This document shows positions 11,802 to 16,806 of a DNA stretch of 36,932 bases, piece after piece. The DNA is taken from contig JACNGQ010000166.1 in the NCBI GenBank assembly GCA_014384025.1, positions 1 to 36,932 of the forward strand, written 5' to 3'. The position numbers and the translations under genes are program-made. Under the pieces are notes generated by a model. The model was not told the origin of the DNA and made no database searches. It saw only the letters and a list, made by a program, of their open reading frames with translations. Within the stretch, counting starts at the first letter, position 1. Each line of letters opens with the position of its first letter. Source of the stretch: Planctomycetota bacterium. Its GTDB lineage: Bacteria > Planctomycetota > Phycisphaerae > Sedimentisphaerales > Anaerobacaceae.

Positions 11802-12614
11802 TTAGCTTTCCTGTGCATCACCTGGCTCGGCATTGGTTGGCTCTGCAGAAGGAACATTCGGTGCAGAAGGTGCTCTGCTGCTTCTCTGAGGAGCCTCTTT
11901 ATGTCTCCCGCCGCCTCTTGTTGACGGACCCATCCGCTTTGGTGGGCGGCGACGATGCTGGCTCGGAACAATTTCTTCGCCGAATTTGCCTTTATAAATC
12001 CAAACTTTTATACCAATGGCTCCGTATGTCGTTCTTGATGTTGCCACAGCATAATCTACATTGGCGTCCAGCGTATGCAACGGGATACTGCCAAGCTTCT
12101 GAGTTTCCTTTCGGGACATCTCAGAACCACCCAGCCGGCCCGAGCAAATAATCTTAACTCCTTTAGCACCAGCTTGCATTGCATTTTCACAATATTGTTT
12201 CATCGTACGCCTGAAGGAAGCCCGCTTGCCTAACTGCTCAGCAATCGCCTCAGCAACCAAATTAGAGTTGAGCTCCGGTTCTTTTATCTCGATGACGTTG
12301 ACACTTATCTTCCGGCCCGTTAGTTCTTCAAGCTCTTCACGCAACTTATCGACTTCACCGCCCCTTGGGCCAATGACCACGCCGGGCCGAGCGCTGTACA
12401 GTGTTACTTTCACTTCGTTGCGCGTCCGGATTATTTCAGTCTTTGCAACCGCTCCTTTGGGCATTTGACGGTTAAATCTATTGTCAACATACCGGCGAAT
12501 CTTCTGATCCTCGACAAGATAATCCCCGTAATTGGCCTTTGTAGCAAACCATGTACTCTGCCAACCAAGGGTTATTCCTGTCCTGAATCCTACTGGCGAT
12601 ACTTTCTGACCCAT
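11802..12614 (-). CDS. rpsC: 30S ribosomal protein S3
   Basis: S3 lines the mRNA entry channel and has helicase function with S4 and S5. The protein has 270 residues against a usual 210-235. MGQKVSPVGFRTGITLGWQ opens it, the KH-2 domain carries GVVIGPRGGEVDKLREEL, and the C-domain carries GAKGVKIICSGRLGGSEMSR and TTYGAIGIKVWIYKGK. The extra length is a C-terminal low-complexity tail from about residue 225, rich in Arg, Pro, Ala and Ser. ATG follows a CGAGATACGAAATT repeat, not a standard Shine-Dalgarno. Confidence 0.97.
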   Translation of the reverse strand: MGQKVSPVGFRTGITLGWQSTWFATKANYGDYLVEDQKIRRYVDNRFNRQMPKGAVAKTEIIRTRNEVKVTLYSARPGVVIGPRGGEVDKLREELEELTGRKISVNVIEIKEPELNSNLVAEAIAEQLGKRASFRRTMKQYCENAMQAGAKGVKIICSGRLGGSEMSRKETQKLGSIPLHTLDANVDYAVATSRTTYGAIGIKVWIYKGKFGEEIVPSQHRRRPPKRMGPSTRGGGRHKEAPQRSSRAPSAPNVPSAEPTNAEPGDAQES

Positions 12615-12636: not shown

Positions 12637-13185
12637 TTATACTTGCGTTACTGTTATATGTATATGACAAGCTTTTTTGTGAATAGGATGCGCTCTGCCT
12701 CTGTCTTTCGGTATCCATCTTTTTGTACCGATCCGAATTCCAGCATCATCGACCCGGGCAGAGCATACATAAAGTTTATCAACATCAACCTGCCGCTCGT
12801 CGGCATCCGCAACAGCACTTCTCAAAACCTTATCAATCATCGTTGCAGCACGTTTTCTCGTGAACTTCAGGATATCCATTGCGTCCTGAGCACTCCGGCC
12901 GACTATCAGTTGAGTAACCAGACGAGCTTTGCGAGCCGACATCGGTGCATATCGATAAGACGAACGCCAGTCAGCTATATCATTTACCTCGACAGACAAG
13001 GCACTCGCCAGGCGATTAATATCATCCGCCCGCGGTTCCGGTTTGAACAGGCCTTTTTGCCAGTTCCTAATAGCTGCAACCGCTTGCTTTTTATTAAGCC
13101 TGGCTCCGGCAAGCCTATCGGCCATCTGCCCGATATCCATCTGTCGTTCCCGGCAACATTCTTTTAACTTCTCAGCACTTAGCAT
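12637..13185 (-). CDS. rplV: 50S ribosomal protein L22 with N-terminal HTH-like extension
   Basis: L22 binds 23S rRNA and lines the exit tunnel constriction. The L22 domain occupies about residues 74-182: RYAPMSARKARLVTQLIVG, DILKFTRKRAATMIDKVLRS, VDKLYVCSARVDDAG and the tunnel loop PKDRGRAHPIHKK. The usual length is 110-120; here there are 182. The first ~73 residues form a separate segment, including DIGQMADRLAG, AVAAIRNWQKG and DINRLASALSVEVNDIADW, that resembles a Cro/C1-type helix-turn-helix in shape and motif order (helix, recognition helix with RNWxxG, then LAxALxV). No start codon with a good site lies at the domain junction, so the fusion appears real. ATG follows TTGAGATAATT, a weak site. 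It lies between rpsS and rpsC. Confidence 0.93.
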   Translation of the reverse strand: MLSAEKLKECCRERQMDIGQMADRLAGARLNKKQAVAAIRNWQKGLFKPEPRADDINRLASALSVEVNDIADWRSSYRYAPMSARKARLVTQLIVGRSAQDAMDILKFTRKRAATMIDKVLRSAVADADERQVDVDKLYVCSARVDDAGIRIGTKRWIPKDRGRAHPIHKKACHIHITVTQV

Positions 13186-13227: not shown

Positions 13228-13497
13228 TTACTTTATCTTCTTACTCGAATGCCCCTTAAACGTCCGTGTGAGCGAAAATTCACCTAACTTATGCCCAACC
13301 ATATCCTCTGTAACAAATACTTTATGAAACATCTTGCCATTGTGAACCATAAACGTAAAACCCACGAACTCCGGGACAATCGTACATCTTCTTGCCCAGG
13401 TCTTTATTGGCTCGCGAGAACCGGAGTCAATTTGCTTATTGACCTTGCCAAACAGCTTGTCGTCAACGTATGGTCCTTTTTTAAGAGATCTTCCCAT
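13228..13497 (-). CDS. rpsS: 30S ribosomal protein S19
   Basis: S19 is in the small-subunit head next to S13. The canonical start [19 protein letters not shown] is used (89 residues); an in-frame start seven codons upstream is within the spacer repeat and lacks support. Landmarks are [52 protein letters not shown] is preceded by GTGAGATACGAGAA. It lies between rplB and rplV. Confidence 0.97.
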
Positions 13498-13511
13498 TTC
13501 TCGTATCTCAC
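13498..13511 (-). repeat. CGARATA-type repeat before rpsS
   Basis: The minus strand reads GTGAGATACGAGAA immediately before the rpsS ATG, two 7-mer units with small changes. Confidence 0.65.
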
Positions 13512-13563
13512 ATAGCACGTGTTTTTCGCACGGCTAAATCAAATATTCAACTGTTTTTGCCTT

Positions 13564-16068: not shown

Positions 16069-16383
16069 TCAGGCTTTTATCCTTACAAAAACTCCCGCCG
16101 GAACTACAAGGCGGTTCAACACTTCAACCGTTCGAGCGTTAGCTTCGTGAATATCAATCAGGCGTTTATGAGTTCTCAGCTCGAATTGTTCACGCGATTT
16201 CTTGTCGATGTGCGGACTTCGCAAAACAGTATATCTTTCAATACGCGTCGGCAGAGGCACGGGACCACTAACACGAGCATTGGTTTTTCGAGCGTGCTCC
16301 ACTATTTCCTTGGCGGACGCATCAAGAGCCCTGTGGTCGTAAGACTCCATCTTAATTCTTATTCTTTCAGTGTCAGCAGCCAT
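16069..16383 (-). CDS. rpsJ: 30S ribosomal protein S10 (NusE)
   Basis: S10 works both in the small-subunit head and, as NusE, in antitermination with NusB and NusG. The 104-residue protein shows [42 protein letters not shown] and [18 protein letters not shown], the tRNA-groove loop region. AAAGGAA lies four bases before ATG, directly after a 7-bp hairpin. It is the first gene of the S10 block and is preceded by a 471-base spacer with a likely promoter. Confidence 0.98.
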
Positions 16384-16581: not shown

Positions 16582-16777
16582 AAATTCGCCTTCCTTAAGA
16601 GTTTGGGTTCGTGCTACAACTACTACCCATCCGAAGCCATACACCAGCCTTTGGATTACCCCTGATTCTAACAGAGTCATAAATCATCCATGACCACAAT
16701 TTTTTGATATGCCACAGCCCAACTAAGGTTTACGCAAAGCCATCCTTGGCGATGCTCGCTACGGCTGAAAACGTTGA

Positions 16778-16806
16778 AAGTTAACACATAAAACAGTAGC
16801 TGTCAA
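16778..16806 (-). promoter_or_regulatory. Probable promoter for the rpsJ operon
   Basis: TTGACA (16801-16806, minus strand) is a perfect -35 box. Seventeen bases later TAACTT (16778-16783) keeps the T, A and final T of a -10 box. It lies just after an AT-rich hairpin following fusA and would give a leader of about 390 bases before rpsJ. Confidence 0.5.

Follow-up and report, generated by a model that had tools for sequence, protein, structure and literature searches.

In planctomycetes of the order Sedimentisphaerales, and in two separate families, the essential 50S protein uL22 carries a transcription-factor domain that is absent from close relatives. The added domain, predicted to be a Cro/C1-type helix-turn-helix (HTH), precedes the uL22 core and is a genuine and ancient feature that selection has maintained. 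With a little better than even confidence, we regard the fusion protein (here, HTH-L22) as a genuine uL22 whose HTH is a lineage-specific 50S component that would contact rRNA near the tunnel exit and would not read DNA.

A uL22 gene with an N-terminal extension

The HTH-L22 gene occupies positions 12637 to 13185 on the reverse strand of the window, the whole stretch of 36,932 nucleotides analyzed here, and encodes 182 amino acids starting from an ATG at 13185. The coordinates, strand, ATG, and unbroken frame are as the initial annotation had claimed, and its division of the protein into HTH-like residues 1 to 73 and an L22 domain from about residue 74 agrees with Pfam and with the predicted fold. 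The uL22 (RplV) core, residues 74 to 182, is encoded with the stop codon at 12637 to 12966 (reverse strand) and was recognized by Pfam, NCBIfam, and Foldseek. PF00237 (Ribosomal_L22) matched residues 77 to 179 with 98.6 bits (cut-off, 28), and TIGR01044 of NCBIfam scored 92.6 bits (cut-off, 73.65); both curated cut-offs were exceeded, and the full core was covered. Against ribosomal L22 chains, Foldseek returned an E value of 6e-11.

The gene is flanked by those for S19 (13228 to 13518) and S3 (11802 to 12614) within a long ribosomal protein cluster, the S10 operon. A whole-genome search found a single copy of L22 in the 6.7-Mb genome, so the HTH-L22 protein must serve in the ribosome. When 13 proteins of the S10 operon were checked, a long N-terminal extension was present on L22 alone. 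Separately, L22 proteins of other planctomycete families bear long C-terminal tails of tens to about 115 residues (four loci), and given these tails, L22 appears to be unusually plastic in the phylum.

Translation of and selection on the extension

In unfused relatives, L22 starts just ahead of the core, which would fit an annotation artefact in which the true start of the present gene lies at the domain junction. The start codons of the fused genes speak against this: domain position 1 is a start codon in all 29 fused loci, which represent nine families (ATG in 17, from the order and family f25; GTG in 12/12 from family f10). The frame is closed 11 codons upstream of M1. The initial annotation had seen no good start at the junction, and indeed M82, the methionine near it, is not conserved, with orthologues having M, L, I, G, V, T, Q, or S, so that the junction is without a conserved start codon. 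In comparisons with 18 relatives, dN/dS was 0.08 to 0.33 for the extension (mostly 0.13 to 0.33) and about 0.05 to 0.10 for the L22 core, ratios that indicate purifying selection on the extension, weaker than on the core. Start codons, closed frame, unconserved M82, and selection signal led us to reject an over-extended start, and with the confident predicted fold described below, an artefact is highly improbable.

No constraint at the nucleotide level was detected in the extension: the low synonymous divergence in the closest pairs was matched by the adjacent S19 region and disappeared in wider pairs. The constancy of GTG starts in family f10 is odd for an essential ribosomal protein gene.

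Fold and family of the N-terminal domain

Residues 1 to 73, encoded at 12967 to 13185 (reverse strand), are identified as a Cro/C1 (XRE-type) HTH by the predicted fold, by Pfam matches of orthologues, and by the conserved start. On the protein itself the family signal is borderline, with HTH_26 matching residues 6 to 73 at 15.8 bits (cut-off, 22; E = 0.017 for residues 1 to 73). Orthologous extensions gave much lower E values, the best being 1e-8 for HTH_19, 3.3e-8 for HTH_3, and 2.3e-7 for HTH_31; HTH_3 (PF01381) was matched by 14 of 31 orthologues. A sequence search of the PDB with the extension gave weak matches only, to TniQ and others.

An AF2 model of residues 1 to 73 alone, built with 42 orthologues, had a mean pLDDT of 93.6 and predicted helices at residues 4 to 14, 18 to 25, 32 to 43, and 53 to 62. 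In the full-length model, strand 1 of uL22 (residues 73 to 80) follows the HTH directly, with no linker. When the model of residues 1 to 73 was compared with 400 PDB chains by VIA-align 2, the best matches were nearly all Cro/C1 domains, with Z up to 9.8 over 62 of the 73 residues at an rmsd of 1.6. CylR2 (Z = 9.8) and C.Csp231I (9.5) were followed by P22 c2, DdrO, and SinR (about 9), and many Cro/C1 domains aligned at Z 8 to 9.8 over 60 to 67 residues; the HTH domains inside the phosphonate enzymes HppE, HEPD, and MPnS reached similar Z scores. Foldseek gave weak E values for the model (best, about 0.07; all above 0.06) with a probability near 1. The initial annotation had read a Cro/C1-type layout in the first 73 residues and had suggested structure prediction and comparison with HTH_3 and HTH_26; the predicted fold and the HTH_3 matches of orthologues agree with that reading, the match to HTH_26 remaining weak.

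Within the domain, the loop before helix 3 varies most, as seen in family f5, two loci of which have additional insertions of several residues there.

Helix 3 and the DNA-reading positions

All 83 distinct sequences of the fused HTH share three residues, N41, W42, and A60. N41 (codon at 13063 to 13065, reverse strand) is the sole invariant polar residue of helix 3 and is the same in all lineages; next to it stands the invariant tryptophan (codon at 13060 to 13062, reverse strand), and most sequences have K or R at position 40. The positions of helix 3 were assigned through sequence anchors rather than structural coordinates, by comparison with an XRE protein encoded in the genome under study, from which five XRE loci served as controls. 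Thus mapped, DNA-reading positions 35 and 38 are near-invariant alanines, and positions 36 and 37 vary among orthologues, mostly among A, V, S, and T; polar, conserved DNA-reading residues were sought in helix 3 of the orthologues and were absent. Compared with an ordinary XRE protein, the domain also has a lengthened helix 2-3 turn, about seven residues being added in the stretch from the LA of helix 2 to the G of W-x-x-G. The mean net charge of the HTH is higher in f10 and f25 (+5 to +6.5) than in the order (about +3).

We read this pattern as a loss of sequence-specific DNA reading with one constant contact kept, as a ribosomal component would keep it. Much of the conservation of the HTH could be related to the fold, with surface constraint apparent only for N41 and the basic position 40. 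The DNA-binding autoregulator that the initial annotation had envisaged is not supported, given the alanines at 35 and 38, the variable positions 36 and 37, the longer turn, and an N41 that is the same everywhere.

Distribution and history of the fusion

A profile of the extension matched 103 of 297 genomes of the class Phycisphaerae: 70 of the order, 31 of f10, and 2 of f25. All 70 order genomes with an assembled L22 have the fusion, and L22 is unassembled in the only two order genomes without a match. One match per genome was obtained, except for one genome with two, and the matches fell in the L22 open frame wherever coordinates were compared. The 58 operons split cleanly into 29 fused (E ≤ 3.7e-11) and 29 unfused (E ≥ 0.76). 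The search of related genomes for the same fusion, which the initial annotation had proposed, found it in the order, in f10, and in f25. The extension was not found in the other families among the 297 class genomes, including the close relatives f24, f22, and f20. A second profile, with f10 and f25 included, gave no clear case elsewhere in 392 genomes of the phylum; its three marginal matches (E = 2e-5 to 6e-4) lie in frames of 912, 107, and 497 codons, and these frames and the weak scores suggest that they are not L22 fusions. No description of an HTH-L22 fusion was found in the open-access literature searched.

None of the free-standing XRE proteins of the class sample matched the first profile at E ≤ 1e-4, which speaks for a common origin of the fused domains. 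Trees were computed for 23S rRNA, for 11 operon proteins (FastTree), and for the short L22 core. In the 23S and operon trees, the order stands apart from a group formed by f10, f25, and the unfused f24, with unfused families between. The L22-core tree broadly agrees with the operon tree and puts the order and f10 each with its own relatives; the trees thus do not call for L22 having passed as a whole gene from one to the other, and such a transfer was rejected. Unconstrained parsimony required three changes, and a single gain required one gain and seven losses. Because the fused domains are homologous, one old gain with repeated loss is favoured as the probable history, two acquisitions of the HTH followed by a single loss being a possible alternative.

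A structured leader RNA upstream of S10

The S10 operon has its own promoter-like TTGACA site (-35 at 16806), and directly behind it, at the 5′ end of the transcript, lies a structured RNA here termed R1 (16711 to 16771, reverse strand). S10 itself starts at 16383, some 330 nt further downstream. The R1 model, derived from 16 sequences, comprises two helices with compensatory changes in 10 of 12 pairs, a level of covariation reached by none of 500 shuffles and by no slid control, and its core AGCGAGC...GCG is invariant. The model recovered a copy on which it had not been trained (E = 6e-7) and found one copy each in 65 of 72 order genomes. No R1 was found in f10, and f25 gave a partial match (E = 0.006) on a contig other than that of its L22. 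No family of Rfam 15 matched R1 at the gathering score. A mimic of rRNA was considered and rejected, as the leader model had no good match to the 23S loci of the clade. R1 is probably a ribosomal protein leader, which makes it a new, order-specific candidate of this kind, and it may help to regulate the operon to which the HTH-L22 gene belongs. A second block conserved within the genus, CCTGCCAGAAATCAAACAAA...GTTTGGC, lies in the S10 leader between 16383 and 16711 (reverse strand) and possibly forms a hairpin.

Proposed role of the HTH and alternative readings

We propose that the HTH is an ancient acquisition from an XRE-type transcription factor, since retained in the 50S subunit, where it would lie at the solvent side near the tunnel exit. 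Since it runs straight into strand 1 of uL22, it would be held rigidly. The stretch K/R40-N41-W42...P49, from helix 3 to helix 4, may contact 23S rRNA or adjacent proteins, and the domain would no longer read DNA; we infer that it now probably serves the ribosome rather than DNA and that rRNA contact is probable. Its likeliest job would be to stabilize or assemble that corner of the 50S subunit or to alter the docking surface of the exit. Two observations weigh on this proposal. No consistent 23S rRNA indel accompanies the fusion in 26 genomes (30 loci, gathered by a 23S pattern search), so no matching rRNA change was found, which counts against a ribosomal role; and the HTH is missing in the close relatives f24, f22, and f20, so a ribosome can do without it. 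As separate observations on these loci, two of the fused clade have about 290 extra bases at a single conserved position, and in one unfused locus about 460 bases are inserted elsewhere; these may be introns or intervening sequences.

The autoregulator of the initial annotation could still take an RNA-based form, as a structured leader is present, even though its DNA-binding form is not supported, given the degenerate helix 3. Stated generally, excess free HTH-L22 would bind the leader RNA or DNA of its own operon and repress it. The HTH does sit on a ribosomal protein whose operon has a promoter-like TTGACA site and a covarying leader, R1 occurs once per genome in the same order as the fusion, and feedback by ribosomal proteins on S10 leaders is known, the E. 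coli leader being the target of uL4 (PMC10931766). However, f10 and f25 carry the HTH with no R1 detected upstream of S10; the confinement of R1 to one HTH-bearing clade means that HTH and leader are not coupled across all carriers. The DNA-reading positions moreover differ between orthologues, the S19-L22 spacer varies in length even within the genus, and the ligand of the leader could be uL4 or another ribosomal protein. Nothing beyond co-occurrence in the order links R1 to the HTH, and f10 and f25 stand against a strict link; we consider autogenous regulation unlikely. A protein with two functions, holding rRNA near the exit and, in excess, binding R1 to shut its own operon, is quite improbable; if it were real, a transcription-factor domain would have been turned into a ribosome-built RNA-binding feedback sensor. 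The HTH might instead serve at the tunnel exit as a platform on which a clade-specific biogenesis factor docks or by which ribosomes attach to the membrane or nucleoid. Such factors dock at the exit, which is ringed by uL22, uL23, uL24, and uL29 (PMC5071890), and the HTH changes more rapidly than the L22 core, a behaviour to be expected if it offered a surface to another protein. Against this, neither uL23 nor uL29 differs in length in a way that matches the fusion, and a longer uL24 is confined to f10 and f25; we rate docking as rather unlikely. The rRNA-contacting 50S component is the reading that we prefer.

Comparison with known systems

HTH-L22 resembles uL22/RplV in its complete core, its standard place in the S10 operon, and its single copy. 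It differs from an ordinary bacterial uL22 of about 110 residues by the 73-residue folded HTH at its N terminus. It is rare for a core ribosomal protein to acquire a folded domain of unrelated ancestry, and the presence and absence of this one amounts to a natural experiment on which additions and removals the tunnel-exit region tolerates. It is also a caution that domain fusions can stay hidden under automatic L22 annotation. One known model, PRK12279 (NF008917), describes an L22/unknown domain fusion and, like HTH-L22, combines uL22 with an extra region. HTH-L22 matches only the L22 part of this model (positions 11 to 108 of 311; 51.6 bits against a cut-off of 526), and the extra part of PRK12279 comes after L22, whereas the HTH comes before it. 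The chloroplast uL22c is likewise a lineage-specific enlargement of uL22 that includes the N terminus, but its extensions lie at both ends, are mostly unmodelled in the map, and are not described as containing a folded HTH (PMC5071890).

The HTH itself shares with Cro/C1 domains the fold, the order of helices, and the signatures W/I-x-x-G....P and LA..L.V; unlike a normal Cro/C1 HTH, it is joined to a ribosomal protein. Precedent for such a domain acting on a ribosome comes from EDF1/Mbf1, a Cro/C1 HTH that touches rRNA in a position between helices h16 and h33, and from archaeal MBF1, which attaches to 30S and 70S by way of its HTH (PMC7486125); HppE, HEPD, and MPnS are precedents for the fold within enzymes. 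EDF1/Mbf1 is a separate small-subunit factor of eukaryotes and archaea, reported absent from bacteria and not fused to a ribosomal protein, and has an N-terminal MBF1 domain or zinc ribbon, whereas HTH-L22 starts with the HTH and continues into uL22. HTH-L22 would be a bacterial parallel of EDF1/Mbf1, built into the large subunit.
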